Positions 3,750 to 41,706 of a DNA stretch of 64,000 nucleotides are shown here, piece after piece. The notes under the pieces are model-generated. The model saw nothing but the letters and a program-made list of their open reading frames with translations. It did not search any database and was not told the DNA's origin. The DNA is from Flavobacterium psychrophilum. Its GTDB lineage: Bacteria; Bacteroidota; Bacteroidia; Flavobacteriales; Flavobacteriaceae. The number at the start of each line of letters is the position of its first letter. Position 1 is the stretch's first letter. The position numbers were made by a program, and so were the translations under genes. The stretch covers positions 1-64,000 of the forward strand of contig CAMAWT010000014.1 in NCBI GenBank assembly GCA_945862065.1, in the 5' to 3' direction.

Positions 3750-5010
3750 AAGTCTTTTGCTTTTTCTTTTTAGCAGCGGGAAACAGTACATTATTCAAAA
3801 TCAATCTAAAACCTGGTGAATTTGGGTGTAAATCTAATAATGTAGGCTCATCTCCTACTCTATGTTGAAAATCTTCGGGGTCGTGACCACCATAAAAGGT
3901 AAAAAAACCTTTTCCTTTTTGTCCGTGAATATAACGAGCTTCTTCATTTATTTGATTTTCGCCAAGGACTAAAACGTTGGATTTTATTAAATCTCTTTGA
4001 TACGAAGTTGTTTGTCCCATGAACCCTTTTACCAATTGTGTATGGTTTTGACAAAGCATACTGGGTATTACATCCCACTTTGCAGAAAACTCCATCAAAG
4101 TAAAATAATCTTTTTCCATGGGAATTTTTCGTTTTTCTGTCATGTCTATATCTGAAAATTCATAGTGATCAGGATTTCTGTCAAGAATAAAATTTTTGAA
4201 TGCGAAAGATTTATTATAATCCATTTTTGTTTGATAGTTTGCCTCGCTCCCATCTCCATCAAACATTGGTTCGCAAATATCGACACCTTCTGCTGCAAGC
4301 GAAATATCAAAACTGTCGGTTGCTGAACACATGGCAAACATAAATCCGCCTCCAATAACAAAATCTCGGATTTTTTTGGAAACCGCCAATTTTTCTTCTG
4401 AAACTTTATTAAAGCCAAGTGATATTGCCAATTTTTCAGCTTCTCTTTTTTGATCGATATACCAAGGAGCATTTCGATAAGCTCCATAAAATTTACCATA
4501 TTGCCCTGTAAAATCTTCGTGATGCAAGTGTAACCAATCATATAATATCAACTGATCTGATAGCACTTCTTCATCATAAATAGGTGTAAACGGAATTTCA
4601 GCATAAGTCAAAACCATTGTAACAGCGTCGTCCCAAGGTTGTTTTCCTTTTGGGGAATAAACAGCAATTTTGGGTGCTTTTTCTAAAACAACCGTTTCCA
4701 TATTTTGAGATGGACTGGCAATTTCGTTAAAGATTTGATTGGCATCATTATCAGAAAGTACCTCAAAACTAACGCCTCTAATTTGACATTCTTTTTGAAT
4801 TTCTGGTGCATCAGGTAGTAAAAAAGAACCTCCACGATAATTTAACAGCCAACTTGCTTTGTAGTTTTTATCCAAACACCAATAGGTAATTCCGTATGCT
4901 TTTAAATGATTTTTTTGAGAAACATCATCCATTGGAAGCAATATAAAATTTGCTTTTGCAACCAAAAACATCAGAAAAAATAGAATCGTAAGGTATTTTT
5001 TAAATGTCAT
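3748..5010 (-). CDS. Exported protein of unknown role (often labelled asparagine synthetase B)
   Basis: A 420-residue protein with an N-terminal signal peptide (hydrophobic residues about 5-20 ending near AKANF), so it is probably periplasmic or surface-exposed. From memory, close flavobacterial homologues are often called asparagine synthetase B. I see neither the N-terminal-nucleophile glutaminase start (Met-Cys) nor a PP-loop synthetase motif. The middle part (IAVYSPKGKQPWDDAVTMVL, then VIGGGFMFAMCSATDS) resembles class I glutamine amidotransferase or ThuA-like folds. That is a weak resemblance. The basic tail AAKKKKQKT is lysine-rich. It lies 45 bases downstream of dnaB on the same strand and may be co-transcribed with it. 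Confidence 0.85.
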   Translation of the reverse strand: MTFKKYLTILFFLMFLVAKANFILLPMDDVSQKNHLKAYGITYWCLDKNYKASWLLNYRGGSFLLPDAPEIQKECQIRGVSFEVLSDNDANQIFNEIASPSQNMETVVLEKAPKIAVYSPKGKQPWDDAVTMVLTYAEIPFTPIYDEEVLSDQLILYDWLHLHHEDFTGQYGKFYGAYRNAPWYIDQKREAEKLAISLGFNKVSEEKLAVSKKIRDFVIGGGFMFAMCSATDSFDISLAAEGVDICEPMFDGDGSEANYQTKMDYNKSFAFKNFILDRNPDHYEFSDIDMTEKRKIPMEKDYFTLMEFSAKWDVIPSMLCQNHTQLVKGFMGQTTSYQRDLIKSNVLVLGENQINEEARYIHGQKGKGFFTFYGGHDPEDFQHRVGDEPTLLDLHPNSPGFRLILNNVLFPAAKKKKQKT

Positions 5011-8844: not shown

Positions 8845-9916
8845 TTCGTAGTAAAAAAATGGCTAAAATTCCGAAAACAATATTTGGAATCCAGACGGCT
8901 ATGATGGGCGGAGCTGCTGCCTTTTCGCCTAAAATTCCGAAAATTTTATCTAAAAAAACATAAGCAAAAGCAAGCAATATACCAATTGCCAAATTCATAC
9001 CCATCCCTCCTCTTCGCTTCATGGATGAAACCGAAACGGCGATAATTGTTAAAATAAATGCCGAAACTGGAATACTGTATTTTCTGTAAAGTACTACTAA
9101 ATAGACATTGATATTGGAAGAACCTCTTTCTTTTTCTTTATTAATAAAATTATTTAAATCAAAATAAGAAAGGGTTTCGGCAATATAAACTAAAGGGGTT
9201 AAATCTTCTAGGTCAAAATTAAAAACAGTGTCTTTTTGGACTAAAGTAGTAAGTTCGTCGCTTAAAACTCCTACTTTTCTTTTTTGGAAATTAAATAACG
9301 TATAGGTACTATCCTTTTCATTCCATTTGATTCTATTTGCTGACACTTTGTATTTCAGTTTATTGTTTTCAAATTTTTCCATCGAAAAATCGAAAGCGGT
9401 TTGTGCATCACTGTTAAAACTACTTACATATATAAATTCGTCTTTACTAATTTGGCGAAGAGTATTTGAACTGCGTCGCATTTCGTTGTCACCATTTCCA
9501 GTCAAGTAGGTGTACCTGAAACTATTAAATCCTTCACTTGCCTTTGGTACTAGAATAAACCCCATAAGTAAAGCTAAAAGAGAGACCGTCGTTGCGCCAA
9601 TTATAAAGGGTCTCAAAAATCTTGTAAACGAAATTCCAGAACTCAAAATGGCAATGATTTCAGTATTATTAGCTAATTTGGAGGTAAACCATATTATAGA
9701 TAAAAATAAAAAAATGGGAAATAATAAATTGGCAAAATAAATAGTAAAATCAACGTAATAAAGAGCAATTGCTTTGAAAGGCACTTTGTTTTCAATCATT
9801 CTGTTTACCTTTTCAGAAACATCGATGATGATTCCGATAGGTACAAACATTAATAACATTACAGCAAATGTGGTAAAGTAACGTTTTAGTATGTATTTGT
9901 CAATTATACTTAGCAT
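8831..9916 (-). CDS. LptF/LptG family lipopolysaccharide export permease
   Basis: A YjgP/YjgQ-type permease of the LptB2FG complex, which extracts lipopolysaccharide from the inner membrane. The 361-residue protein has the family layout: N-terminal membrane helices (LDKYILKRYF-like start, then MLLMFVPIGIIID and LLFPIFLFLSIIWF), a periplasmic beta-rich domain (about 140-255) and C-terminal helices. It lies 10 bases downstream of tgt and overlaps the next gene. Whether it acts as LptF or LptG is not decided by the sequence alone. Confidence 0.92.
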   Translation of the reverse strand: MLSIIDKYILKRYFTTFAVMLLMFVPIGIIIDVSEKVNRMIENKVPFKAIALYYVDFTIYFANLLFPIFLFLSIIWFTSKLANNTEIIAILSSGISFTRFLRPFIIGATTVSLLALLMGFILVPKASEGFNSFRYTYLTGNGDNEMRRSSNTLRQISKDEFIYVSSFNSDAQTAFDFSMEKFENNKLKYKVSANRIKWNEKDSTYTLFNFQKRKVGVLSDELTTLVQKDTVFNFDLEDLTPLVYIAETLSYFDLNNFINKEKERGSSNINVYLVVLYRKYSIPVSAFILTIIAVSVSSMKRRGGMGMNLAIGILLAFAYVFLDKIFGILGEKAAAPPIIAVWIPNIVFGILAIFLLRNAKR

Positions 9917-9926
9917 ATCTATTAGT

Positions 9927-11057
9927 TTATAATCGTTGGCTCATGTTTTTGACCATCATTTCTTTCCAAGTTCTAAAATCTCCTTGAATAATATGTTTTC
10001 TTGCTTCTCTAACCAACCACATGTAAAAACCAAGATTATGAATGGTTGCAATTTGCTTGCCTAGATATTCGTTTGCAGCAAAAAGATGACGAAGATATGC
10101 TTTTGAATATTCTCTATCTACAAAAGTGATACCCATTTCATCTACAGGAGAAAAATCATCTTCCCACTTTTTGTTTTTAATATTTATTGTGCCGTTTGCC
10201 GTAAATAACATACCGTTTCTTGCATTTCTAGTTGGCATTACGCAATCAAACATATCTACTCCCAAAGCAATATTTTCTAATATATTGATTGGAGTTCCCA
10301 CGCCCATTAAATACCTAGGTTTATCTTCGGGAAGTATAGAACAAACGACGTCTGTCATGGCATACATCTCTTCGGCAGGTTCGCCCACAGAAAGTCCTCC
10401 AATGGCATTTCCTTGTTGGTTGGAATTGGCAATATATTCAGCTGATTGCATGCGCAAATCTGTATACGTACTTCCTTGAACTATTGGGAAAAAAGTTTGT
10501 TCATAACCATATTTTACGGGTACTTTCTCCAAATGATTGATGCAACGATCAAGCCAACGATGGGTCATTTTCATGGAACGTTTTGCATAATGATAATCAC
10601 ATGGATAAGGCGTACATTCATCAAAAGCCATAATAATATCAGCACCTATTGTACGCTGAATTTCCATCACATTTTCGGGTGTAAAAAAGTGATACGACCC
10701 ATCAATATGTGATTTAAACTTAACGCCTTCTTCTTTTATTTTTCTGTTTGCAGATAATGAATACACTTGATATCCACCAGAATCGGTCAAAATATTGCGG
10801 TCCCAATTCATAAATTTATGTAAACCGCCCGCTTTTTCTAGTATTTCAACTTGAGGTCGAAGATAAAGGTGGTAAGTATTTCCTAAAATAATATCTGGGT
10901 TTATTTCTTCTTTTAACTCCCTTTGGTGCACTCCTTTAACTGAAGCAACCGTTCCGACAGGCATAAAAATCGGGGTTTCAATGACACCATGATCGGTGGT
11001 AATCTTACCTGCACGAGCCTTAGAATTAAGGTCTTTTTGTAATAATTCAAATTTCAT
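9927..11057 (-). CDS. tgt: tRNA-guanine transglycosylase (no zinc-site cysteines)
   Basis: Exchanges guanine 34 of tRNAs with GUN anticodons for preQ1 in queuosine synthesis. The 376-residue protein has the TIM-barrel motifs: DSGGYQVYSL, GGLSVGE, MGVGTPINILENIALG and the nucleophile-bearing MFDCVMPTRNARNG. In the E. coli enzyme a CxCxxC cluster plus a histidine binds zinc near the C-terminus. Here the aligned stretch reads PVDEMGITFVDREYSKAYL, so those cysteines are missing. I recall the same loss in other Bacteroidota, so the gene is probably intact. It is the first gene of a likely operon with the LptF/G permease and EamA transporter. Confidence 0.96.
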   Translation of the reverse strand: MKFELLQKDLNSKARAGKITTDHGVIETPIFMPVGTVASVKGVHQRELKEEINPDIILGNTYHLYLRPQVEILEKAGGLHKFMNWDRNILTDSGGYQVYSLSANRKIKEEGVKFKSHIDGSYHFFTPENVMEIQRTIGADIIMAFDECTPYPCDYHYAKRSMKMTHRWLDRCINHLEKVPVKYGYEQTFFPIVQGSTYTDLRMQSAEYIANSNQQGNAIGGLSVGEPAEEMYAMTDVVCSILPEDKPRYLMGVGTPINILENIALGVDMFDCVMPTRNARNGMLFTANGTINIKNKKWEDDFSPVDEMGITFVDREYSKAYLRHLFAANEYLGKQIATIHNLGFYMWLVREARKHIIQGDFRTWKEMMVKNMSQRL

Positions 11058-11076
11058 ATAATGCTTTTACAAGAAG

Positions 11077-11084
11077 CAAAGATA
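11077..11084 (-). promoter_or_regulatory. Possible tgt promoter (-7 element)
   Basis: TATCTTTG on the minus strand, 20 bases upstream of the tgt ATG, matches the TAnnTTTG consensus. The -33 element is not clear. Confidence 0.35.
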
Positions 11085-11209
11085 ATTTATTTTAGAGTGT
11101 ATAATTTGTAAATTTATATTTTATTTAACGCTGAAAAATTAACATCTCATTAACATTAAAATATACTTACGGTTAAATTTCAATTTGTTTCTTTGTAAAA
11201 AAGTTGTAG

Positions 11210-12835
11210 ATGTTTACATTTTTCAAAAAACTAACTAATTTACAAAGAATTACGTTTTTAATAATATTCATAATTTACATACACAATTTGTTTATTGATG
11301 TAATGGGAGTAGATGCAGCGCAATATGCAGCTATTGCTTTTGAAATGTCTCAAACTAATTCCTTTTTAGAAGTTAAAGAATTTGGATTGGATTATTTAGA
11401 TAAACCGCCTTTGTTATTTTGGCTTTCAAGTTGTAGCATCAAACTTTTTGGCCCATCAAATTTTGCTTACAAATTACCTTCTTTTTTATTTTTACTTGGT
11501 TCTTTGTTTGCTGTTTATAGAGTTAGCATCTTGTACTACAGTGAAAAAATTGCTATAAATGCTTTTCTTATATTAGCAACTACTCAAGCATTTTTTTTAA
11601 TTACTAATGATGTTCGTACAGACACTTTACTAACCTCTTGTACAATCATTTCTGTTTGGTTGTTTTCTGAATATTTTGAGAAAAGAAAAATTGTTCATTT
11701 AATAGTAGCTTCTGTTTTTTTGAGTTTAGGAATGTTAGCTAAAGGACCTATTGGAGCTATTGCTGTTTTATTTCCGATATTTATACATTTAATGTATCAA
11801 AATAAATGGCGAGATATTTTCAATTTTAAGTGGCTGTTAGTTTTAGTAATTGTTGCTTTGTTTCTTTTTCCGATGTCTTACGGTTTGTATAACCAATTTG
11901 ATTTACATCCAGAAAAAGAAAAAAGCGGCTTGTATTTTTATTATTGGTTGCAAAGTTTCGGAAGAATAACCGGAGAAAATGTTTGGAATAACGGCTTGCC
12001 TTGGCATTTCTTTTTAGGGTCTAGTGCTTGGGACTTTTTTCCTTGGATTGTTCCACTTTACGTTGCCGTTTTCTTTAAGATTAAATCCCTTTTTACATCC
12101 AAAGACAAGGTGCCTGAGTTATTTTCATTGGTCGGTTTTATTGCTATTTTTGCGATGATGTCTTTATCAAAATACAAACTTCCGCACTATGTTTTTGTAA
12201 CTTTTCCGTTCGCATCCATTTTGTTATCAGAATATATTTCCAATTTAGATTTTAAATATTGGAAACGTTGGAAAACAATGTTCTACGTTTTCGGAATTAT
12301 TGTATTGGTACTAATGTTGATTTATCAACAATTCTTCTTTACCCAAACCAATAGTTGGCTTTTGGTTTGCATTGTTCTGCAACTATTTATTTTATTTTAT
12401 TTTAGAAAATCTAAATCTCAAAGTATTTCTGAACTTGCTATTTTAGTTTTGGTATTAAATGTTTTTTTGAGTTTTGTTTTTTATCCAAAATTATTGTCAT
12501 TTCAAGGAGATTCAAGTGCTGCAAAATGGGCAGAAACGAACATCAAAAAGGAAGAAATATATGTGTTTGAAAAACCATCGCATTTGTATAATTTCTATTC
12601 CAAAAATCCATTTACAAAAGTATTACCAAAATCACAAATTAATACAAACAAAAACGACTATTGGCTTTATATTTGGGAGGAAGATTTACCCAAATTACAA
12701 TCATTACAAGGAAAAATAACCGCAAAAAAAGAGTTCGTAAATTATCCAATTACACAATTAAAATTGAATTTTTTACTTGAAAATAAAAGAGCAAACGAAC
12801 TTGAAAAAAGATATTTAATAAAAATTGAAAATTAA
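11210..12835 (+). CDS. GT39-family membrane glycosyltransferase (ArnT/PMT-like)
   Basis: A 541-residue integral membrane protein of the dolichyl-phosphate-mannose/ArnT superfamily, which transfers a sugar from a polyprenyl-phosphate carrier on the periplasmic side. Signs are the first loop with an acidic residue (MGVDAAQYAAIAFEM), the conserved YLDKPPLLFWLSS segment, about eleven hydrophobic helices and a small C-terminal soluble domain. A GT2 gene follows six bases later and probably makes the lipid-linked donor. The acceptor (lipid A, glycan or protein) cannot be told. Confidence 0.88.
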   Translation: MFTFFKKLTNLQRITFLIIFIIYIHNLFIDVMGVDAAQYAAIAFEMSQTNSFLEVKEFGLDYLDKPPLLFWLSSCSIKLFGPSNFAYKLPSFLFLLGSLFAVYRVSILYYSEKIAINAFLILATTQAFFLITNDVRTDTLLTSCTIISVWLFSEYFEKRKIVHLIVASVFLSLGMLAKGPIGAIAVLFPIFIHLMYQNKWRDIFNFKWLLVLVIVALFLFPMSYGLYNQFDLHPEKEKSGLYFYYWLQSFGRITGENVWNNGLPWHFFLGSSAWDFFPWIVPLYVAVFFKIKSLFTSKDKVPELFSLVGFIAIFAMMSLSKYKLPHYVFVTFPFASILLSEYISNLDFKYWKRWKTMFYVFGIIVLVLMLIYQQFFFTQTNSWLLVCIVLQLFILFYFRKSKSQSISELAILVLVLNVFLSFVFYPKLLSFQGDSSAAKWAETNIKKEEIYVFEKPSHLYNFYSKNPFTKVLPKSQINTNKNDYWLYIWEEDLPKLQSLQGKITAKKEFVNYPITQLKLNFLLENKRANELEKRYLIKIEN

Positions 12836-13683: not shown

Positions 13684-14529
13684 ATGTCAAATACACAACA
13701 ATTAAACGACTTTACGACCCAAGTTAGAAGAGATATTCTTCGTATGGTTCATGCCGTAAACTCTGGACATCCGGGGGGATCACTCGGATGTGCCGAATTT
13801 TTAGTAACGCTTTACCAAAATATCATGTCCCGCAAAGAGGGATTTGATATGGACGGAATAGGTGAAGATTTATTTTTCTTGTCAAACGGACACATATCTC
13901 CTGTTTTTTATAGTGTTTTAGCTCGTAGCGGCTACTTTCCAGTAGCGGAATTAGCGACTTTCAGAAAATTAAATTCACGTTTGCAAGGTCACCCAACCAC
14001 GCACGAAGGATTGCCAGGAATCCGCATGGCATCTGGTTCGCTAGGTCAAGGTTTGTCTGTTGCAATTGGTGCAGCTCAAGCCAAAAAATTGAACAATGAC
14101 AACCATCTTATTTATGCCCTTTTAGGCGATGGTGAGTTGCAAGAAGGACAAAACTGGGAAGCCATCATGTATGCTTCAGCTAAAAAAGTAGATAATCTTA
14201 TTGCAACCATTGACCTTAACGGAAAACAAATTGACGGTACTACAGACGAAGTGTTGAACATGGGCAGCATCAAAGCAAAATTTGAAGCTTTTGGATGGGA
14301 TGTTTTGGATATTGCCACAGGAAACGACATTAACGCCATAAAAAATGTTTTAACCGAAGCCAAAGGAAAATCAGGAAACGGAAAACCAGTTTGTATTTTA
14401 TTACATACCGAAATGGGTAATGGTGTCGATTTTATGATGCACACTCACGCTTGGCACGGAAAAGCACCAAACGATGAGCAACTAGCCAACGCATTGGCAC
14501 AAAACCCAGAAACATTAGGAGATTATTAA
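13684..14529 (+). CDS. Transketolase, N-terminal subunit
   Basis: First half of a split transketolase, a thiamine diphosphate enzyme that moves two-carbon units between sugar phosphates in the pentose phosphate pathway. The 281-residue protein carries the N-terminal TPP-binding half: VNSGHPGGSLG, FLSNGHISPVFYS, GSLGQGLSVAIGAA and GDGELQEGQNWEA. The C-terminal half is at 15164. Split transketolases are usual in many bacteria, but the two genes are normally adjacent. Here a 210-codon gene lies between them. Confidence 0.95.
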   Translation: MSNTQQLNDFTTQVRRDILRMVHAVNSGHPGGSLGCAEFLVTLYQNIMSRKEGFDMDGIGEDLFFLSNGHISPVFYSVLARSGYFPVAELATFRKLNSRLQGHPTTHEGLPGIRMASGSLGQGLSVAIGAAQAKKLNNDNHLIYALLGDGELQEGQNWEAIMYASAKKVDNLIATIDLNGKQIDGTTDEVLNMGSIKAKFEAFGWDVLDIATGNDINAIKNVLTEAKGKSGNGKPVCILLHTEMGNGVDFMMHTHAWHGKAPNDEQLANALAQNPETLGDY

Positions 14530-14534
14530 ATTGC

Positions 14535-15167
14535 ATGAAAAAAATAATACTATTTTTAATAATCATTTTTAGCAAAAACGCATTTTGTCAAGATTACCAT
14601 TTTGATAAATTTCTTCAATATTCAGAAATTGATAGAGCTGAAATAATAATCATGACTAATACAAAGGATAGTAGTTACTTTTTTCTACATTCAAATCGTG
14701 GAAATCATTTTGAGGGTCGAATTATAGATAGTAAAAATAAAATGTATCATTCTTTTCTATTAAAAAATTATAATAATTCAATTTTGTTTGAATACATTGA
14801 GTCAGATTCTATAGTAATGAAAACACCTTGTAAAGACATTGATAATTATTTTAAAATTGAAGAGAATCCTATTGATACAATAAGTTCAAATTTTAAAATA
14901 ATTAAGTATAAAAGTTTAAGTAAAAAGGCAATAATTCAAACTGCTGATTTTGATGCAAAAAAAGTTGATTATAATACTGAAAATATTTTAAATACTTTTT
15001 TTAGTCATTTTATTTATTGTCAAAAAATTACTGTTCCAAATTATTTACCAACTTCAATAGTATTAGATTATAGAAATGGTATTAAAGTAAAATCAGTGTT
15101 GAAAAAAGATGTAAACCTAAATACAGTTTTAACTGTAAAAGAAAAAAAATATAAAGAAAAAATATGA
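14535..15167 (+). CDS. Exported hypothetical protein inserted between the transketolase halves
   Basis: A 210-residue protein with a clear signal peptide (MKKIILFLIIIFSKNAFCQ). I recognise no family. It is lysine- and asparagine-rich, and its DNA is visibly more AT-rich than the flanking transketolase genes, which suggests a later arrival. It starts 6 bases after the N-terminal subunit stop and overlaps the C-terminal subunit start by 4 bases (ATGA), so it should be co-transcribed and translationally coupled. Nothing links it functionally to carbohydrate metabolism. Confidence 0.8.
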   Translation: MKKIILFLIIIFSKNAFCQDYHFDKFLQYSEIDRAEIIIMTNTKDSSYFFLHSNRGNHFEGRIIDSKNKMYHSFLLKNYNNSILFEYIESDSIVMKTPCKDIDNYFKIEENPIDTISSNFKIIKYKSLSKKAIIQTADFDAKKVDYNTENILNTFFSHFIYCQKITVPNYLPTSIVLDYRNGIKVKSVLKKDVNLNTVLTVKEKKYKEKI

Positions 15168-16117
15168 AAAAATATACCAACACAGGCAGCAAAGATACCC
15201 GTTCAGGTTTTGGAGCTGGAATGACCGAATTGGGTCAAAAAAATGAAAATGTAGTAGCACTTTGTGCCGACTTAATTGGATCGTTAAAATTTGATGATTT
15301 CAAAAAAAACCACCCAGAACGTTTCTTTCAAATCGGAATCGCAGAAGCCAACATGATTGGCATTGCGGCAGGTTTAACCATTGGAGGTAAAATTCCGTTT
15401 ACGGGTACTTTTGCCAACTTTTCAACAGGTAGAGTGTATGACCAAATCCGTCAATCGGTAGCTTACTCTGATAAAAACGTAAAAATATGTGCCTCTCACG
15501 CAGGTCTTACACTTGGTGAAGACGGTGCAACACATCAAATCCTTGAAGATATTGGATTAATGAAAATGTTGCCAGGTATGACCGTAATCAACACTTGCGA
15601 TTATAACCAAACCAAAGCAGCAACCATTGCACTAGCTGATCACCATGGTCCAGCTTACTTACGTTTTGGTCGCCCAGTTGTGCCCAACTTTATGCCTGTC
15701 GACGAGCCATTTGTAATTGGTAAAGCAATTATTTTGCAAGAAGGTACTGATGTAACTATTATTGCAACAGGTCACTTAGTTTGGGAAGCATTAGTTGCTG
15801 CCGAAGCTCTAGAAGCCAAAGGCATTTCAGCTGAAGTCATCAACATCCACACCATCAAACCATTGGACGAAGAAGCGATTTTAAAATCGGTTGCTAAAAC
15901 AGGTTGTGTAGTAACAGCCGAAGAGCACAACATCATTGGCGGATTGGGTGAAAGCGTTTCTAGAACCTTGGTTCAGAACCATTTAGTTCCTCAAGAGTTT
16001 GTGGCAGTAAACGATAGTTTTGGCGAAAGCGGCACCCCAGATCAATTGATGGAAAAATACAAACTGAACAACCAAGCCATTGTTGCTGCCGTTGAAAAAG
16101 TAGTGAAGAGAAAATAA
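15164..16117 (+). CDS. Transketolase, C-terminal subunit
   Basis: Second half of the split transketolase, carrying the pyrimidine-binding and C-terminal domains. The 317-residue protein shows GFGAGMTELGQ, the glutamate segment IGIAEANMIGIAAGL, SHAGLTLGEDGATHQ and YLRFGRPVVP. Its start codon overlaps the stop of the preceding exported hypothetical. An intrinsic terminator follows. Together with the gene at 13684 it gives one complete enzyme. Confidence 0.95.
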   Translation: MKKYTNTGSKDTRSGFGAGMTELGQKNENVVALCADLIGSLKFDDFKKNHPERFFQIGIAEANMIGIAAGLTIGGKIPFTGTFANFSTGRVYDQIRQSVAYSDKNVKICASHAGLTLGEDGATHQILEDIGLMKMLPGMTVINTCDYNQTKAATIALADHHGPAYLRFGRPVVPNFMPVDEPFVIGKAIILQEGTDVTIIATGHLVWEALVAAEALEAKGISAEVINIHTIKPLDEEAILKSVAKTGCVVTAEEHNIIGGLGESVSRTLVQNHLVPQEFVAVNDSFGESGTPDQLMEKYKLNNQAIVAAVEKVVKRK

Positions 16118-16140
16118 AAATCACATACGATCAAAAATCA

Positions 16141-16171
16141 AACCCCAAAAAGTAACTTTTTTGGGGTTTTT
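16141..16171 (+). terminator. Intrinsic terminator after the transketolase operon
   Basis: An 11-bp stem AACCCCAAAAA / TTTTTGGGGTT is followed by a T run, 24 bases after the stop codon. Confidence 0.85.
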
Positions 16172-16210
16172 CATTTTAAAGAATGTTTCTATTCAAAACT
16201 CGTAATTAAT

Positions 16211-16531
16211 TAGAAGCACACAACCGCATTCCAGTTGAAACCTCCTCCCGCTTTCGCCTTTATCTTGCTCCGTAAACTACGCAAGGATATCGGCTCAATC
16301 GGGGCTAGAATTGATGTTTTGTTTTTCAGATGACTTTTTATTGGAAGGCAATAGGAAATAGGCATTAGGCAATAGTTTTAATCACCGATAAATATGAAAA
16401 TTAGTTTTTCAGTTGTAGTTTTCAGGGTTCAGTCGCAGGGTTCAGTCTGATTTTTCAGTTTTCAGTCTAATTTTTCATTTTTCAGTCTGATTTTTCATTT
16501 TTTAGAATCTCAAATTTGTGTGAATTTGTGA
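16211..16531 (-). repeat. Left composite inverted repeat of the island
   Basis: The outer part (16211-16307) is a hairpin repeat in minus orientation (TAGCCCCGATTGAGCCGATATCC, stem CTTGC/GCAAG, GATAAAGGCGAAAGC, GCTTCT end). The inner part continues through GTTTTTCAGATGACTTTTT, GGAAGGCAATAGG and GGCATTAGGCAATAG, then several TTTTTCAGTTTTCAG units, to AATCTCAAATTTGTGTGAATTTGTGA. The same order appears inverted at 22240-22531. No gene lies here. Confidence 0.75.
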
Positions 16532-16585
16532 AATATGTGGTTAAACAAATTGACATTGAAATTACAATTGTGAATTACGCTTTCC

Positions 16586-16600
16586 AAACCTGTCAGGGTT
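16586..16600. repeat. AACCTGTCAGGGTT element, left
   Basis: A short imperfect palindrome like those in Bacteroidota REP-type repeats. A near copy (AACCCTGTCAGGGTT) lies at 22140-22154, on the other side of the island. Confidence 0.35.
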
Positions 16601-16697
16601 CTAATCTGACAAAGTTGACAACAGTTATTTAGAACTGAAAACTAAAAAACTACCCATAAATTTCACTACTTTTGAAATCTTTAAAACTAAATGCCAA

Positions 16698-16817
16698 ATG
16701 AAATACAAAAACATCCGTGAGGAAGAACTCAAAAACAAAGTAGGCGCCGGCTGGTTCAAAACTTTTGATACCACCGAAATACTTGGTAATATCGATTTTA
16801 AGGTGAAATTAACATAA
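16698..16817 (+). pseudogene. Truncated 5' duplicate of the restriction-modification gene
   Basis: This fragment encodes 39 residues. The first 34 match the start of the protein encoded at 18773 except for one change (AGW here, ADW there). Matching DNA runs 16696-16800, against 18771-18875. The frame then diverges and stops at 16815-16817. It ends between the predicted catalytic Asp33 and the Glu53/Lys55 of the nuclease motif, so it cannot be active. A -7-like TACTTTTG lies at 16667-16674, probably the original promoter of the restriction-modification gene. Confidence 0.85.
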
Positions 16818-16829
16818 GGAAAAAAATAG

Positions 16830-16837
16830 TATATTTG
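16830..16837 (+). promoter_or_regulatory. Possible ATPase-nuclease operon promoter (-7 element)
   Basis: TATATTTG, 23 bases before the ATPase ATG and just downstream of the duplicated fragment, matches TAnnTTTG. The -33 element is weak. If real, it makes this module independent of the promoter upstream of the fragment. Confidence 0.4.
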
Positions 16838-16860
16838 TAAACAAAAGATTTTTACACGAA

Positions 16861-18249
16861 ATGAAAATACAAATAAATAATTTAGGTGCAATTAAAGAAG
16901 GAACTATTGACTTATCTAAAAAGTTGAATGTTTTTTGTGGTCCTAACGGAACAGGTAAAACCTATTTGGCATATGCGGTTTATGGTTTATTAAAAACCCA
17001 AATTCATGTAGGTTCAAATAAAGAATTAGTGAAAAACTTAATTGATAAAAAAAAGTATCTTTACCCTATAGATTTTACTGCTCTAAATCAATACAGAAAT
17101 CTTTTAATCACTAATTTTAAAGAAGATTTAGATAGTTTATTTGGAATAGGTGAAGATTTAGCCAAACAATATTTTGCGGATACAATCATTAATTATAATG
17201 AAACAGAACAAGAGTTTGAGGAAAAATTAACGGAATGTAGTTTTGAAACCTTTTTAGACATAAAAAAAATTAATCTAAAAATTTCAAAAGAAATAAATTC
17301 AAAAGAAATAGCATTAGAAATAACAGATTATACAATTTCTAATGATGACATTGAGATGTTAGAAATATTTTTACACTCAACTATTTTATTGTTATTATCT
17401 AAATATCCAATTAGTTCTACTTTTATATTGCCTGTTGAGCGAAATTCAATTTTTACTTTCAGTAAAGAATTGTCTATCAAGAAACAAGAGGCAGTTGATC
17501 ATTTTCATGCCATGACAGGCAAAAATCAAATTGACCGTTTTGATTTGTTGTTTAAAAAAACTACCCGTTACCCGCTTGCAATAAAAGATGGGTTAATGAT
17601 AGCCGAAGATTTAGCAGAAACCAAAAAAAATAAAAGTCCTTTTTATGATTTAGGAATCGAAATAGAAACTGAATTATTGCATGGAAAGGTTATCATATCA
17701 AGTGAAGGTGAGATTCAATTTGAACCAGAAAAAGCAAAGAAAAGATTTTTGCCTATTCACATGACAGCATCAATTATTAAATCTTTAGCCAGCTTGGTAA
17801 TTTATTTAAAACACATTGCCAAAAAGAATGATTTAATTATCATTGATGAACCCGAAATAAACCTTCATCCCGACAATCAAATTATTCTAACACGTTTGTT
17901 TGCCCGATTAATAAATAAAGGTTTTAGATTATTGATTAGCACTCATAGCGATTATGTTGTGCGAGAAATTAATAATTTAATCATGCTTTCGTCTAAAAAA
18001 GATGAAGTTATAAAACTTAAAAATACTTTTGGATATAATGATGATGAATACATAAACCAGGAAGATATTGACGTTCATTTTTTTGATTATCCAAAAAAGA
18101 AAACAGGAAACAAACATGTTTTGATAGAAAAATTAGAAATTCTGTCTAGTGGTTTTGAAATCCCTTCAGTTAATAAAACCATTGAAGAACAAAATGAAAT
18201 TGCAGAAGAGTTGTTTTACGCATTAGAATACGCAGGCAATGACGAGTAA
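16861..18249 (+). CDS. AAA/ABC-type ATPase (SMC/OLD-like), candidate defence protein
   Basis: A 462-residue ATPase of the overcoming-lysogenization-defect/AAA_15-like group. It has an N-terminal Walker A GPNGTGKT (27-34), a divergent middle region, an ABC signature-like segment MTASIIKSLASL (301-312), Walker B LIIIDEPE (325-332) followed by INLHP, and the STHSDYVV switch histidine (about 360-367). There is no C-terminal TOPRIM nuclease domain, so it is not a canonical OLD or GajA. Its last 11 bases overlap a PD-(D/E)XK-like gene, suggesting an ATPase-effector pair comparable in layout to Septu or PARIS. The pair is AT-rich and lies between copies of the restriction-modification gene start. 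Function is inferred, not recognised. Confidence 0.85.
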   Translation: MKIQINNLGAIKEGTIDLSKKLNVFCGPNGTGKTYLAYAVYGLLKTQIHVGSNKELVKNLIDKKKYLYPIDFTALNQYRNLLITNFKEDLDSLFGIGEDLAKQYFADTIINYNETEQEFEEKLTECSFETFLDIKKINLKISKEINSKEIALEITDYTISNDDIEMLEIFLHSTILLLLSKYPISSTFILPVERNSIFTFSKELSIKKQEAVDHFHAMTGKNQIDRFDLLFKKTTRYPLAIKDGLMIAEDLAETKKNKSPFYDLGIEIETELLHGKVIISSEGEIQFEPEKAKKRFLPIHMTASIIKSLASLVIYLKHIAKKNDLIIIDEPEINLHPDNQIILTRLFARLINKGFRLLISTHSDYVVREINNLIMLSSKKDEVIKLKNTFGYNDDEYINQEDIDVHFFDYPKKKTGNKHVLIEKLEILSSGFEIPSVNKTIEEQNEIAEELFYALEYAGNDE

Positions 18250-18760
18250 TTTAGAACGATTGTCAAATATTTTAGATGATTTTTTTAAAGAGGAAACAAT
18301 ATCTAAATTGCAAGAGCCAAAAGAAAATATGTTCATTGAATTTATTTCAGATAACCAAAAATTTTTGAGTTTTTCTTTTGATAAACAACCATTACCAAAA
18401 AATGATTTCCCAAAAGGTATTTTCCCATTTTTTAACAGAGGAACAGGAAAAGTAACATCATTTTGTGATTACATTATTTTTACAGAGAAAGCAGGAAACC
18501 TTTATATTTTATTAATTGAATTGAAAGCTGGAAAAGATAATGTTAACAAACAATTGGAAGCCGGTAGATGTTTTTCAGAATATATAATTTCAACACTAAA
18601 CAGAGTATATAATCTTAACATTTCACCTCAAATTCGCAAAATTTCAATCAGAAAAACTCATGTAACTCCAAAACCGCAACAAAGAAAAAAAGTTGAATAT
18701 TTAGATAATCTACACACTTTTCGTGATTCAAAATTTTGGTTAAAAAAATATTTAGATTAA
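18239..18760 (+). CDS. Small PD-(D/E)XK nuclease-like protein, partner of the ATPase
   Basis: A 173-residue protein with a plausible PD-(D/E)XK core: Asp77 in SFCDYIIF, then ELK at 94-96 in LYILLIELKAG, followed by KQLEAG (Gln105). This order (beta-strand Asp, about 16 residues, hydrophobic strand, E-x-K, then a helix with Gln) is that of restriction endonuclease-like folds. I do not recognise a named family. The gene overlaps the ATPase gene by 11 bases (ATGACGAGTAA), so the two are translationally coupled. It ends 12 bases before the restriction-modification gene. It could instead be a non-catalytic DNA-binding relative. Confidence 0.78.
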   Translation: MTSNLERLSNILDDFFKEETISKLQEPKENMFIEFISDNQKFLSFSFDKQPLPKNDFPKGIFPFFNRGTGKVTSFCDYIIFTEKAGNLYILLIELKAGKDNVNKQLEAGRCFSEYIISTLNRVYNLNISPQIRKISIRKTHVTPKPQQRKKVEYLDNLHTFRDSKFWLKKYLD

Positions 18761-18770
18761 TTTTTTTTAG

Positions 18771-18875
18771 AAATGAAATACAAAAACATCCGTGAGGAAG
18801 AACTCAAAAACAAAGTAGGCGCCGACTGGTTCAAAACTTTTGATACCACCGAAATACTTGGTAATATCGATTTTA
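18771..18875 (+). repeat. Second copy of the 105-bp direct repeat
   Basis: It matches 16696-16800 with one substitution. It forms the true 5' end of the restriction-modification gene. The two copies enclose the ATPase-nuclease pair. Confidence 0.9.
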
Positions 18876-21244
18876 CGGTGTTCCCGAAACAAGATAATTT
18901 GTTTGGGAGAGTTCCACTACTTTGGGCAGAAGCCAAAACGGGTAACTTTGATGTTCCCACTATGTTTGTGCAGCTCATTCTGACCATTGGCAAAGCACGA
19001 ACGTTTGACAAAACCCTCCCACCAGCTTTTTTGGGTGCGTTTGATTTTAAAAAAATTGCTTTTGTGCCGTATATCACTATTTCGGATATTTTTTATCTCA
19101 ATGATTTCAATTGGAATGTAACGCCCAGTAACCACGAAACCAAAGAGTTTCAACTCATTAAAGAGCGTATAGAGTCGGTATTGAAACAAAACACCTACGT
19201 GTATGATTATGAAAAGGACGAAAAGGAACTTCATAATTTTATCAAAAATAACGTTGCCAAATCCACCACAACTAGCAAATTAAAAATTGACAAAAACAAT
19301 TTTATACCCATTTATTTGCGATGGCTGGAAGTGGTAAAACCCAACATTGACGTAAACTGGGACGAGCTAAAAAAGGCGAACATCATGGACAGTGATTTTT
19401 ACCTTGCCGACTTGTTTGTGGACGACAAAGACACGCAAAATATAGATGATGACTTGTCTATCCGTGACAGTTTGTTTGTGGTGTTCCAAAACCAAGGGTA
19501 CAAAATTGCCAAAGAAAACATCAAGCAAATGTTTGATGCCACCATCAATTTAAAAAACAAAGACACCTATTTGCACTTTTGGAAACGTTACAAACGCCCA
19601 CCGCTCAAGGAATTTCAGGATTACATCATAGAGCGCAGAGATTTACTAGTGCCACAAGACATTAGGGAACGAAAAGGTGCTTTTTTTACGCCCCGTATTT
19701 GGGTAGAATTATCCCAAAAATACCTCACCGATTATTTGGGCGAAAACTGGCAAGACGAATATTATATTTGGGATTGTGCGGCAGGAACGGGCAACCTTTT
19801 GGCGGGACTGACCAACAAATACCACATTTATGCCAGCACGCTCGACCAAGCCGATGTAAACGTAATACACGAACGCATTGACCACGGTGCCAACCTACTG
19901 AAAAACAACGTATTTCAGTTTGATTTTTTGAATGATGAGTTTACCAAACTGCCCCAAAGCCTGCAAGACATTATTAATGATGAGGAAAAACGCAAGAAGT
20001 TGGTGGTGTATATTAATCCGCCGTATGCGGAGCATGGAAATAGATCAGTTCATGCTGGTAATGGCGAACATAAATCTAGTGTTGCCAATACAAGTAATGT
20101 TTATAATGAATTTAGTAAAACTGTTGGTACATCTGTGAGAGAGTTATATATACAATTTTTTTTACGTATTTATAAAAACATTCCAAATTCAATACTAGCT
20201 TCATTTAGCACTTTAAAATTTATAAGCTCTCCTAATTTTTCATTATTTAGAAATTATTTTAAAGTTGATTTTCAAAAAGGATTTATATGTAAAGCAAGTA
20301 CTTTCGATAATGTAAAAGGAAAATTTCCAATTGGATTTTTAATTTGGGAATTAGATAAATCTAAATTAATAGACTCAATAACTGTTGATGTTTTTGAAGA
20401 GGATTTAACTTATATTAGAGATAAACGTTTCTTTGTTGTTGAAAATGATAAATATCTAATTAATTGGTTTAGACCTTTTATTGACAGAAATACAAATCAA
20501 TTAGGTTCACTACATATACATAGCAACGATGTACAACAACAAAATGTAATATCTATTACATCTGAACCAACAAAAAGTGATTTAATTCAAAAAACATTTA
20601 CATATATAAATTCTACAAATTTATTAGCTGTTTCAATATATTATGCACTTCGTCATCATATAATTGCAACATGGATTAATAATAGAGATCAATTTCTTTT
20701 TCCAAATGACGGTTGGCTAACGGATTTAGAATTTCAAAATGATTGTTTAGCTTTTACCTTATTTAATAATAACATTCAAAGTCAATACGGCACCAACCAC
20801 TGGATTCCTTTCACAGAGTACGAAGTGAATGCACAAGCCAAGTTTGCTAGTAATTTTATGACGGATTTTATCAAGAGCCCCCCAACCCCCAAAGGGGGAG
20901 CAACTGCAAACGATTTGTTTAGTACTACCACAGCTGCGATAAGCCCCGCTGTAGCTCCCCCTTCGGGGGTTGGGGGGCTTTTATTTTCAACCGAAGCCAC
21001 CGCCGTTTTTGATGCAGGGCGTGAGTTGTGGAAATACTACCATGCTCAAAAAGACGTAAATGTCAACGCCAGTTTGTATGACATCCGTGAATACTTTCAA
21101 GGCAGAAACGACAAAGGCAGAATGAACAGTAAAAGCGATGATGCAACCTATATGACTTTAATTGGCGATTTGCGCAGTAAACTAGCTATTCTTGCCGATG
21201 CCATCAAGCCAAAAGTGTATGAATATGGGTTTTTGAAGGAGTAG
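18773..21244 (+). CDS. Single-chain restriction-modification protein (type IIG-like)
   Basis: An 823-residue protein that appears to join a nuclease and an N6-adenine DNA methyltransferase. A PD-(D/E)XK-like motif lies at the N-terminus (Asp33, then Glu53-Ala-Lys55 in LLWAEAKTG). The methyltransferase part has GAFFTP (about 302-307), motif I WDCAAGTGNLLAGL (333-346) and the catalytic NPPY (415-418). The rest would be target recognition. Residues about 701-737 (SPPTPKGGATAND to PSGVGGLLF) are encoded by a palindromic REP-like insertion, read in frame. Its own 5' 105 bp is duplicated upstream, and it now starts 12 bases after the nuclease-like gene, so it probably depends on read-through from the ATPase promoter. 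The specificity is unknown. Confidence 0.88.
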   Translation: MKYKNIREEELKNKVGADWFKTFDTTEILGNIDFTVFPKQDNLFGRVPLLWAEAKTGNFDVPTMFVQLILTIGKARTFDKTLPPAFLGAFDFKKIAFVPYITISDIFYLNDFNWNVTPSNHETKEFQLIKERIESVLKQNTYVYDYEKDEKELHNFIKNNVAKSTTTSKLKIDKNNFIPIYLRWLEVVKPNIDVNWDELKKANIMDSDFYLADLFVDDKDTQNIDDDLSIRDSLFVVFQNQGYKIAKENIKQMFDATINLKNKDTYLHFWKRYKRPPLKEFQDYIIERRDLLVPQDIRERKGAFFTPRIWVELSQKYLTDYLGENWQDEYYIWDCAAGTGNLLAGLTNKYHIYASTLDQADVNVIHERIDHGANLLKNNVFQFDFLNDEFTKLPQSLQDIINDEEKRKKLVVYINPPYAEHGNRSVHAGNGEHKSSVANTSNVYNEFSKTVGTSVRELYIQFFLRIYKNIPNSILASFSTLKFISSPNFSLFRNYFKVDFQKGFICKASTFDNVKGKFPIGFLIWELDKSKLIDSITVDVFEEDLTYIRDKRFFVVENDKYLINWFRPFIDRNTNQLGSLHIHSNDVQQQNVISITSEPTKSDLIQKTFTYINSTNLLAVSIYYALRHHIIATWINNRDQFLFPNDGWLTDLEFQNDCLAFTLFNNNIQSQYGTNHWIPFTEYEVNAQAKFASNFMTDFIKSPPTPKGGATANDLFSTTTAAISPAVAPPSGVGGLLFSTEATAVFDAGRELWKYYHAQKDVNVNASLYDIREYFQGRNDKGRMNSKSDDATYMTLIGDLRSKLAILADAIKPKVYEYGFLKE
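20873..20982. repeat. Palindromic REP-like element inside the restriction-modification gene
   Basis: Two inverted 29-base arms (20873-20901, beginning AAGAGCCCCCCAACCCCC, and 20954-20982, ending TTGGGGGGCTTTT) enclose about 52 bases. Each arm is itself palindromic (CCCCC ... GGGGG). Such GC-rich palindromes are common between genes in Bacteroidota genomes. Here one lies within a coding frame and keeps it open for about 37 codons. A degenerate relative lies at about 59961-59988. Confidence 0.85.
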
Positions 21245-21335: not shown

Positions 21336-21977
21336 ATGGAATATAAAGAAATAAAAGATGAACTTAAAAATATCATTCAAGGAAAGAGCCAAGTTGGCAG
21401 CGGCAAACTTATCCAAACAATCGCCTTATACCTTAGAAGAAGCAAAGAAACAGGTGCTTTGGCTTCAAGAAAAAAGCACAGCAAAAAACAAGAAACAGAG
21501 GAACTCATAAAATTTATTAATACAAAACAGCTTTGGGTTTGTGATATTAATTTTGATGCGTTTATTTCTGAAGGAGCAGAACAAAAAGTTTTCGTAAAAG
21601 ACACGCAAAAAGTTTTAAAACTAAACGATAGCATCTATTATGAATTTTGGGAAGATTATTTTCATAATTTACTCTTAAACAATTACTTTTTTCCCGAAAC
21701 TGCTTATCATTTAATAGGCTTTTATAAATCTACCGAAAATATTTTATATGCCTTGGTAGAGCAAAAATACATAAAGGCAGATGAACCTACAGATTTGCAA
21801 GATGTAAAAAACTTTTTAGTAAATAATGGTTTTGATTGCTCCAAAAACAACGATTATTATCACCCAGAATTAGGCATCATTCTTGAAGATTTGCATGATG
21901 AAAATGTATTGACAGCGAAAGGTATCTTATATTTTATTGATACTGTTTTTTATATAAAACCCGAAATGTTTTGGTAA
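21336..21977 (+). CDS. Protein kinase-like protein (polyvalent-protein kinase type)
   Basis: A 213-residue protein. The segment GAEQKVFVKD..KVLKLND (80-97) resembles a kinase nucleotide-binding strand with Lys95. ILEDLHDENVL (182-192) resembles a kinase catalytic loop (DxHxxN), and YFID (about 199-202) could be the metal-binding Asp. This fits the small Ser/Thr kinase domain found in phage polyvalent proteins. The match is from motif memory only. It lies 91 bases after the restriction-modification gene on the same strand, within the inverted-repeat-bounded island, so a role in defence or its control is plausible. Activity is not certain. Confidence 0.75.
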   Translation: MEYKEIKDELKNIIQGKSQVGSGKLIQTIALYLRRSKETGALASRKKHSKKQETEELIKFINTKQLWVCDINFDAFISEGAEQKVFVKDTQKVLKLNDSIYYEFWEDYFHNLLLNNYFFPETAYHLIGFYKSTENILYALVEQKYIKADEPTDLQDVKNFLVNNGFDCSKNNDYYHPELGIILEDLHDENVLTAKGILYFIDTVFYIKPEMFW

Positions 21978-22239: not shown

Positions 22240-22531
22240 TCACAAATTCACACAAATTTGAGATTCTGAAAACTGAAAAATAAGACTAAACCCTGCGAAT
22301 GTAAACTGCGAATGAACCTTGAAAACTGCGAATGAAAAACTATTTGTCAATGACAAACTCGATTCGGTCTAATGCCTATTGCCTATTGCCTTCCAACAAA
22401 AAGTCATCTGAAAAACAAAACGTGAAGCATAGCCCTGATTGAGCCGATATCCTCCTGAAGTCCCGTAGGGCGAAGGAGATAAAGGCGAAAGCAGGACAAA
22501 ACGTCTTGAAAAACGAAGACTGGTGCTTCTA
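22240..22531 (+). repeat. Right composite inverted repeat of the island
   Basis: Inverted counterpart of 16211-16531. The inner part is TCACAAATTCACACAAATTT with CTGAAAACTGAAAAAT and three CTGCGAATG units. Then comes TGCCTATTGCCTATTGCCTT and AAAAAGTCATCTGAAAAAC, and finally the hairpin repeat at 22430-22531 (TAGCCCTGATTGAGCCGATATCC, stem CTCCT/AGGAG, GCTTCT end). It abuts the carB terminator. Confidence 0.75.
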
Positions 22532-26585: not shown

Positions 26586-26593
26586 CATTTATA

Positions 26594-26763
26594 AGAAGCA
26601 CCCAACTCCGTTTTTCAAGTCAACTTGTCCTGCTCTCGCCTTTATCTCCTTCGCCCTACGGGACTTCAGGAGGATATCGGCTCCATCAGGGCTAAGCTTC
26701 ACGTTTTGTTTTTCAGATGAAATTTTGTGTGAAGGCAATAGGCATTTGGCAATAGGCATATAG
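26594..26763 (-). repeat. Composite hairpin repeat, third extended copy
   Basis: The hairpin unit (26594-26694) has stem CTCCT/AGGAG. It is followed by GTTTTGTTTTTCAGATGA, GAAGGCAATAGGCATTTGG and CAATAGGC, as in the island-flanking repeats. It occupies the gap between two convergent genes. The rest of the gap up to 26908 shows no gene. Confidence 0.7.
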
Positions 26764-26908
26764 CTACATCCAAGGTATAAATGAAAGGTGGTTTTTCAGT
26801 TGAAGATGATAATTAGCGAATGAGTTAATTAGAAAATGAGTTTATGTATATTTAATTTAGGGAGAGACATTTTCACAATCTGGACAAACAGCCATTAAAT
26901 ATGCTAAT

Positions 26909-27600: not shown

Positions 27601-27700
27601 TAGCCCTGATAGAGCCGATATCCTTGCGTAGTCCCGAAGGGCGAGCAAGATAAAGGCGAAAGCAGGACACAATGTCTTGAAAAAACGGGGTTTTCTGCTA
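27601..27700 (+). repeat. Hairpin repeat, CTTGC/GCAAG stem
   Basis: TAGCCCTGATAGAGCCGATATCC, stem CTTGC ... GCAAG with inner TCCCGAAGGG, then GATAAAGGCGAAAGCAGGA. It lies between the hypothetical at 26909 and the 3' end of ilvA. The rest of this gap holds a 59-codon frame at 27403-27582 that is not convincing, and TTACTAATCAC repeats at about 27724-27766. Confidence 0.7.
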
Positions 27701-39544: not shown

Positions 39545-39640
39545 CAAGACAATCACGTCCAACAGGAGTTTTGTCCTGCTTTCGCCTTTATCTCCTTCGC
39601 CCTACGGGACTTCAGGAGGATATCGGCTCTATCAGGGCTA
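39545..39640 (-). repeat. Hairpin repeat, CTCCT/AGGAG stem
   Basis: Minus orientation: TAGCCCTGATAGAGCCGATATCC, stem CTCCT ... AGGAG with inner TCCCGTAGGG, then GATAAAGGCGAAAGCAGGA. It lies downstream of the minus-strand gene that ends at 39704. Confidence 0.7.
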
Positions 39641-39703
39641 AAATCGACGAGTAGATTTTCAGAAGAAAAGTTGCAGAGTTTCTAAATTTGATCTATTTTT
39701 GAG

Positions 39704-40102: not shown

Positions 40103-40433
40103 AAGTTTTTAACTTTAATAATTCAATATACTTTTCAGGATTTTCTGTTAATTCAATTTTATAATTCTTAGTCGGAAATATTTTCATAAATTTTATATTT
40201 TAAAATTTAACACATCATCAAACGATTAAAACTTACTTTTAGTGGAAACTATATTTCATAATGATTTTCCTATTTGGCAAATAGCTTAAAACACAACAAG
40301 TGTTTTGGTATATTTTATTCAAAAATAAGTAAATAAGTTTTATCTTTTTCTTTTTTTATCGCAAAGGCGCAAAGTTTTAACTTTGAATCTTTGCAACTCA
40401 ACAAAATATCTTCTGAAATCTATACTTCGATTT

Positions 40434-40530
40434 TAGCCCCGATTGAACCGATATCCTTGCGTAGTTTACGGAGCAAGATAAAGGTGAAAGCGGGACTAGA
40501 TATCTTTTGAAATGGATTGGTGTGCTTCTA
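40434..40530 (+). repeat. Hairpin repeat, CTTGC/GCAAG stem, ending in a stop codon
   Basis: TAGCCCCGATTGAACCGATATCC, stem CTTGC ... GCAAG, then GATAAAGGTGAAAGCGGGA and a GCTTCTA end. The last three bases (40528-40530) are the stop codon of the convergent GlmU-like gene. The 240 bases before it hold AT-rich DNA without a gene. Confidence 0.7.
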
Positions 40531-41706
40531 AAAATTCTGACGCCACTTTTTGGTCTCTTCAAAAACGTGTTCCAAAATTTTGGCGTCTTCTTCTGTGAAG
40601 TCCACATGGCGGCGCAACATGACTACTTTGGCTACTTCAAACGCTTTTTTTGTTAAATAGGTGGTGAAGCCGCTGGCGCCTCCCCAAGAAAAACTTGGTA
40701 CAAAATTTCTAGGAAATCCGCTGCCAAAAATGTTGGCGCTCACTCCTACCACGGTGCCTGTGTTGAACATGGTGTTGATGCCGCACTTGCTGTGATCGCC
40801 CATCATCAATCCGCAAAATTGAAGCCCGGTTTTGGCGAAATTTTCGGTTTCATAGCTCCACAATTTTACTTCTTCGTAGTTGTTTTTTAGGTTTGAGTTG
40901 TTGCTGTCGGCACCAATATTGCACCATTCGCCAAGAACTGAATTTCCAAGAAAACCATCGTGCCCTTTGTTGGAATATCCAAAAAGTACCGAGTTATTTA
41001 CTTCGCCCCCTATACGGCAGTGCGGCCCAACGGTGGTGGCGCCATATACTTTGGTTGCCAATTTTACTTGGGCTTCTTCGCACAAAGCAAAAGGTCCTCT
41101 AATGACTGAGCCTTCCATTATTTCGGCATTTTTTCCAATATAGATTGGACCCGTTGAAGCATTTAATGTTACAAATTCGAGTTTGGCACCTTCTTCAATA
41201 AAGATGTTTTCGGGAGCAATAACATTAACCGATTTTGGGATAGGTTGCGAGGTTCTATCGGCAGTGATAAGTTCAAAATCTTCTCGGATGGCTTGGTCGT
41301 TTTTTGAAAATATATCCCAAGTATGTGCTATTTTGATGCAGTTGCTATCAAAATCAATAATTTCGTAAGTATCAAAATCAATTTCTTCTTGGGTGTCATT
41401 GGTGAAAAAAGCGACTACTTCATCGCCTGCAAAAATGGCTTGATTGGATTTCAAGTTTTGTACCAATGAAACTAATTTACGATTGGGAACAAATGCTGCA
41501 TTAATCATGATGTTTTCTTCCATTTCAACCATCGGGAATTTTTCAGAAAGATATTCTTCTGTCAAAGTGGTTGTGGTGGTACCCAATTGGGTTTCCCATT
41601 TTTCTCTAATAGTCAAAATTCCAATTCTAATATCGGCAACTGGTCTGGTAAAAGTGAACGGTAAAAGTGCATTTCTTACGGTTCCGTCAAAAAGTATGTA
41701 GTTCAT
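40528..41706 (-). CDS. GlmU-like sugar nucleotidyltransferase
   Basis: A 392-residue protein of the alternative GlmU group found in Bacteroidota, thought to act as UDP-GlcNAc diphosphorylase/acetyltransferase. The N-terminal part (MNYILFDGTVRNALLPFTFTRPVADIRIG) is a divergent nucleotidyltransferase. The C-terminal part is a left-handed beta-helix of hexapeptide repeats (about 190-330: YIGKNAEIMEGSVI, GGEVNNSVLFGYSNKGHDGF). The exact reaction is inferred from family naming. Confidence 0.87.
   Translation of the reverse strand: MNYILFDGTVRNALLPFTFTRPVADIRIGILTIREKWETQLGTTTTTLTEEYLSEKFPMVEMEENIMINAAFVPNRKLVSLVQNLKSNQAIFAGDEVVAFFTNDTQEEIDFDTYEIIDFDSNCIKIAHTWDIFSKNDQAIREDFELITADRTSQPIPKSVNVIAPENIFIEEGAKLEFVTLNASTGPIYIGKNAEIMEGSVIRGPFALCEEAQVKLATKVYGATTVGPHCRIGGEVNNSVLFGYSNKGHDGFLGNSVLGEWCNIGADSNNSNLKNNYEEVKLWSYETENFAKTGLQFCGLMMGDHSKCGINTMFNTGTVVGVSANIFGSGFPRNFVPSFSWGGASGFTTYLTKKAFEVAKVVMLRRHVDFTEEDAKILEHVFEETKKWRQNF

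Follow-up and report, generated by a model that had tools for sequence, protein, structure and literature searches.

Probable insertion of a PD-T4-4-type defense pair at the start codon of a type IIG-like restriction-modification gene in Flavobacterium psychrophilum

In a 64,000-nucleotide stretch of Flavobacterium psychrophilum DNA (assembly GCA_945862065.1, contig CAMAWT010000014.1, positions 1 to 64,000 of the forward strand; hereafter the window), a gene for an OLD/ABC-type ATPase is followed by a gene for a small nuclease-like protein. The preliminary description of this region had located the pair at a restriction-modification (RM) gene, and an RM-like gene (18773-21244) does lie directly downstream; the direct repeat that brackets the module is absent from the observations of that description. 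Based on matches of both proteins to existing models, we assign the pair to the PD-T4-4 type of antiphage system with high confidence. That a real insertion occurred at this RM gene, leaving behind a truncated copy of its first codons (a stub), we regard as practically certain. Overall, the likely account is that a type IIG-like RM gene was already resident here and that a PD-T4-4-type pair was inserted at its start codon.

The insertion is read from a 110-bp direct repeat. Its left copy (16696..16805, plus strand) and right copy (18771..18880, plus strand) are 98% identical, with two mismatches, at positions 55 and 106, and the edges are sharp (identity of 29/100 and 23/100 in the adjoining 100 bases on either side). 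The right copy begins 2 bp upstream of the RM ATG at 18773 and is the start of the intact RM gene (18773..21244, plus strand, 823 aa), while the left copy begins 2 bp upstream of an ATG that now opens a 39-codon open reading frame (ORF; 16698-16817); this left copy is the stub. The RM gene, which anchors the array, has homologues in other genomes, and its product shows by eye the D..EAK and NPPY motifs expected of a one-protein RM enzyme; Pfam, NCBIfam, and PDB searches returned no match backing the RM name.

The same site is occupied, at greater length, in two other genomes. In Flavobacterium branchiophilum (locus L003), the order is stub, pair, stub, GajA-GajB, RM gene; in a Flavobacterium metagenome-assembled genome (locus L001), it is stub, a UPF0175 gene, stub, pair, stub, NsnA-NsnB-NsnC, RM gene. 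The Gabija and Nsn proteins match their models (GajA, 1.4e-176, and GajB, 2.2e-193, in L003; NsnA, 4.3e-108, NsnB, 3.3e-95, and NsnC, 2.7e-75, in L001). Six stubs are thus present (one in the window, two in L003, three in L001), and all six start at the RM ATG, with lengths of ~43 to 110 bp as their ends were judged by eye. Similarity to the RM start rises toward the RM gene (34, 37, and 38 of 40 across three stubs and 30 and 35 of 40 across two, with 3' copies at 33 and 37), a trend that consists of seven values only. The stub scan was a 40-bp ungapped comparison that heavily decayed stubs would escape; five shuffles per locus gave a maximum of 27/40, and the best nonstub match was 26/40.

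Could the arrangement be an artifact, or could the stub be doing something else? An assembly artifact is unlikely: three separate assemblies show the arrangement, and the stubs of L001 and L003 have diverged. A functional leader peptide is likewise unlikely, as both window mismatches change a residue (by eye) and stops break the match at an L001 stub. We also considered a "doll" model, in which one event leaves both 5' and 3' RM remnants. It fits L001 (5', 38 and 37; 3', 37 and 33 of 40), but no 3' remnant is found in the window or in L003. In the genome of L001, the RM 3' end recurs downstream at 9820 (37/40) and 11192 (33/40); in the corresponding stretch (L036, reversed coordinates 9057-11231), the repeats follow single downstream genes, as if gain also took place at the RM stop codon.

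Insertion at a start codon raises the question of how the RM gene is expressed. TAnnTTTG is a Bacteroidota-type promoter motif, and on the plus strand of 16117-18790 it occurs at four sites (16667, 16830, 17238, and 18024), the last two within the ATPase gene. The first, TACTTTTG (16667..16674, plus strand), lies 31 bp upstream of the stub ATG and is perhaps the original RM promoter; the second, TATATTTG (16830..16837, plus strand), lies 31 bp before the ATPase ATG, and by eye a promoter-like site stands at the matching place in the L003 and L001 cassettes. Because such sites precede the stub and the ATPase and none is found on the plus strand in the 700 bp upstream of the RM gene, the cassette probably supplies the promoter for the RM gene.

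Which defense system is this? The ATPase (462 aa, 16861..18249, plus strand) and the small protein (173 aa, 18239..18760, plus strand) are encoded by ORFs that share 11 bases (18239-18249), and the ORFs, the overlap, and the motifs named in the preliminary description are all where it had placed them. In the ATPase, Walker A (GPNGTGKT, residues 27-34, G27 to T34; 16939-16962, plus strand) is invariant in 34/34 aligned relatives, Walker B (LIIIDEPE, residues 325-332; 17833-17856, plus strand) is invariant or nearly so, and D329, E330, and E332 are conserved in all 34; the alignment took 34 relatives out of 120 listed, from 2876 matches that passed in total. The reading of this protein as OLD-like and without TOPRIM holds, in that it matches AAA_15 and AAA_21 and a Pfam search gives no TOPRIM match. 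In the small protein, the proposed PD-(D/E)XK-like motif is borne out: D77 (18467-18469, plus strand), E94-L95-K96 (18518-18526, plus strand), and Q105 are invariant in all 29 relatives aligned, out of 69 found, the most distant being 30% identical. The co-occurrence survey that had been suggested finds the two genes together and adjacent in each of the five Bacteroidota loci inspected, the small gene being broken in one of them (L003 6559-7079, where the ATPase reading frame is still open).

What did not stand is the suggestion that the pair is an undescribed defense system. The ATPase matches the PADLOC model PD-T4-4_A over essentially its full length (E value of 8.1e-92, residues 1-455 to model positions 1-458 of 460), and the small protein matches PD-T4-4_B (E value of 2.3e-13, residues 39-137 to model positions 47-145 of 190); both matches were judged by E value and coverage. 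These are the best PADLOC models here and in the four other intact pairs scanned. Although the small protein has no Pfam, NCBIfam, or PDB sequence match, which would suit a new system, we find that reading scarcely credible because both proteins match the models of a named system, an outcome that the preliminary description itself had listed as refuting its proposal. As a defense system, then, the pair is ordinary, of a type already described: PD-T4-4 was published in 2022 (Vassallo 2022, PMC9519451), and in the accessible parts of that paper and of PMC10952713 it consists, like the window pair, of two genes encoding a PF13175-type ATPase and a PD-(D/E)XK protein. The window pair differs in belonging to a Bacteroidota branch, with ~30% identity to the relatives found on enterobacterial plasmids, and in standing at an RM gene, whereas the Escherichia coli system is reported in an ICE-like element.

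The neighboring system types fit less well. Models of PDC-M47, a PADLOC candidate, rank second for both genes (1.9e-68 and 1.2e-7), below PD-T4-4 on each; a literature search under the name PDC-M47 found no paper. The small protein was said not to be PtuB, AriB, or GajB, and the PADLOC models agree. Thus, in contrast to Septu, the partner is not the HNH protein PtuB; in contrast to PARIS, AriB is absent among the seven PADLOC model matches, and the AriA model reaches just 2.4e-25 on the ATPase; and in contrast to Gabija, the ATPase has no TOPRIM match (GajA has TOPRIM), and neither Pfam nor PADLOC identifies the small protein as a helicase, which GajB is. Closer is WonAB, likened here on its published description: in the accessible text of PMC12137116, it combines an ABC/OLD-type ATPase without TOPRIM with a PD-(D/E)xK partner, and its authors call it similar to PD-T4-4. 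The same text reports that WonAB needs the WonA ATP site and WonB K71 and that it acts once phage DNA replication has started, largely blocking capsid assembly, with cell arrest. By analogy, we posit that a dimeric ABC/OLD-type ATPase would sense an infection cue and license its PD-(D/E)XK partner and that the outcome would be abortive infection, not clearance of phage DNA as it enters. In this model, the window pair would be an ATPase sensor controlling a nuclease effector in abortive infection.

How did the pair come to stand at the start codon of the RM gene? One reading, which we hold tentatively and at a little short of evenly balanced, is repeated, recombination-driven gain of defense cassettes at this one gene. 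Several observations speak for serial gain. Several unrelated systems (PD-T4-4-like, Gabija, and NsnABC) use one boundary, and stubs closer to the RM gene resemble its start more. Between the window and L003, third-position identity is 78.8% for the ATPase and 59.0% for RM codons 1-400, and the window segment has 91.9% DNA identity compared with 82% for carB; by these comparisons, the RM alleles are older than the L003 cassette. The window stub matches its own RM gene at 98% identity (2/110 differences) but an L003 stub at only 76%; if the stub/RM split predated the cassette split, the chance of two or fewer differences would be ~0.006 at 8% divergence (hand calculation), gene conversion being the alternative. 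The window RM gene is flanked by a tkt-like gene and carB; in the other two genomes (G001 and G003), these are on contigs other than that of the RM gene, which has different neighbors there. Finally, the small protein is 94% and the ATPase 78% identical to the L001 counterparts, from which it would follow that recombination may also cut inside cassettes.

In terms of mechanism, the incoming DNA would carry defense genes already joined to an RM start and would recombine with the resident allele of the same RM gene, with one junction within the first 43-110 bp of RM and the other made through RM homology. If the incoming genes are joined to an RM start in this way, a boundary at the ATG needs no special enzyme, because the homology of the two RM alleles starts there. 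The resident RM start would remain as a stub, the RM gene would be kept whole, and any later cassette would come to lie between the previous one and the RM gene, whose transcription would then start at the cassette promoter. We speculate that selection may have kept the stubs short by acting against longer pieces, which would encode the nuclease motif. To generalize, and with somewhat greater reserve, we propose that the Flavobacterium type IIG-like RM gene could be a self-preserving landing pad. Exchange of the RecA type, guided by RM homology and independent of any integrase, would bring in whole systems in succession at the start codon and single genes at the 3' end, and every such event would leave a 43-110-bp stub, with the RM gene intact under the promoter of the newest cassette.

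Other observations weigh against this proposal. Against L001, the third-position identities of the ATPase and of RM codons 1-400 are 61.9% and 59.8%, so that the ATPase does not come out as young there, and the window segment (80.8%) is no closer than carB (84%). All three stub loci carry the same pair, and two were first found via the pair, although these two were also recovered in the RM search. Pairs in G002, G787, and L004 are located away from this RM gene, and no RM stub accompanies them. We infer the mechanism, because stubs occur at only 3 of the 21 RM loci and the L001 comparison holds no young ATPase.

Some of these same observations would suit a different history, in which the pair was inserted once in an ancestor and afterwards inherited or transferred as a block, with gene conversion between the two repeats having made the window stub match its own RM gene. 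Judged by eye, the left RM boundary of the pair (~nt 106-110) is the same in the window and L003 and perhaps, in decayed form, in L001; ATPase and RM gene are equally diverged from L001 (the 61.9% and 59.8% above); and a Kinase-PolyVal gene follows the RM gene both in the window (21336..21977, plus strand; Pfam PF18762, E value of 8e-61; membership in the cluster uncertain) and in the genome of L001, where the counterpart is 73% identical. We consider a single ancestral insertion possible but doubtful, as it leaves unexplained the other cassettes (Gabija, Nsn, and UPF0175), with their different stub lengths and the same ATG, as well as the younger L003 cassette.

Is it possible instead that an unseen recombinase or transposase recognizes the RM start and duplicates 43 to 110 bp of it? 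That all six stubs start at the ATG would follow naturally, and there is precedent: insertion with long target duplication (Nobusato 2000), as described in the accessible portions of PMC3874152 and PMC3031569, yields variable direct repeats of ~100 bp around the inserted unit and is tied to RM genes, the long variable duplications being reported for RM units in PMC3874152. The window insert is likewise bracketed by a direct repeat of ~100 bp, one copy of which completes the target. In the known case, however, the RM unit is what inserts, whereas here the RM start is duplicated and PD-T4-4-like, Gabija, and Nsn genes are inserted, more than once. Site-specific insertion nevertheless seems improbable to us, given that no recombinase-like ORF was noticed by eye in the ORF lists of the cassettes, that stub lengths vary, and that repeat searches show no terminal repeats besides the RM stub.

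The first 40 RM residues were used to ask how widespread the site is. They were found in 13/299 Flavobacterium genomes, 3/397 genomes of the family (one a repeat), 3/79 further genomes, three of the four source genomes (two repeats), and 7/296 relatives of G001 (all repeats), which, with the window and one viral contig, gives 21 RM loci (19 in other genomes). The 18 loci without stubs are all in other species and in other genomic places. For 16 of the 21, the available upstream sequence is 4.6 kb or longer, and the same three of these 16 have stubs; for the remaining five, 0.2 to 1.4 kb lies between the contig start and the RM gene. We reject spread of the pair by plasmids or phages, since no vehicle was found: the small protein has no match among 72,556 plasmid records, and the matches of the ATPase to 34 plasmid and 3 phage records are all below 60% identity. 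A scan of viral contigs with an ATPase profile confirmed 0 of 109 candidates, and a search of viral contigs with the RM protein returned one contig, without a stub. That contig, from IMG/VR (L050 8001-11783), holds an RM relative 52% identical, among phage-like genes and beside an integrase-like gene on the opposite strand (gene names by eye), and is a possible carrier of the RM gene.

The setting suggests how defense islands could grow without a visible mobile element. Where loss of an RM gene carries a cost, the gene may serve as both an anchor and a homology arm and take in PD-T4-4, Gabija, and Nsn modules one after another, with a stub to mark each. If the landing-pad proposal is true, such an array would be an ordered, datable record of defense acquisitions, and the stubs would be a signature that can be searched for at other RM genes. 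Our literature searches, which were limited in subscription journals, found no comparable stub-marked stacking of defense genes at an RM gene; as far as they show, what is new here is the RM gene as the target instead of the insert, together with that stacking.

Several further features of these regions deserve mention. At L004, a 198-aa gene that closely follows another PD-T4-4-like pair is flanked by a 54-bp direct repeat (2179-2232 and 3766-3819; 93%). Within the window RM gene, two 35-nt arms, 89% complementary, span 20873-20982 and code in frame for a proline/glycine-rich stretch; similar palindrome-coded stretches can be seen by eye in the RM proteins of L001 and L003, at that position or at others, as though a palindromic element were inserting in frame. 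Inverted repeats (16284-16368 with 22369-22453, and neighbors) were considered as ends of an island and rejected as a cluster boundary because they belong to a dispersed repeat, with similar sequence near 26.6, 27.6, 39.6, and 40.5 kb. This dispersed repeat is noncoding, is present in both orientations, and lies at 16246-16531, with similar stretches near 22240-22496, 26588-26805, 27601-27684, 39568-39666, and 40399-40531. Upstream of the array, at 13684-16117, a 210-aa gene without a Pfam match stands between what appear by eye to be the halves of a split transketolase and overlaps the second half by 4 bases.
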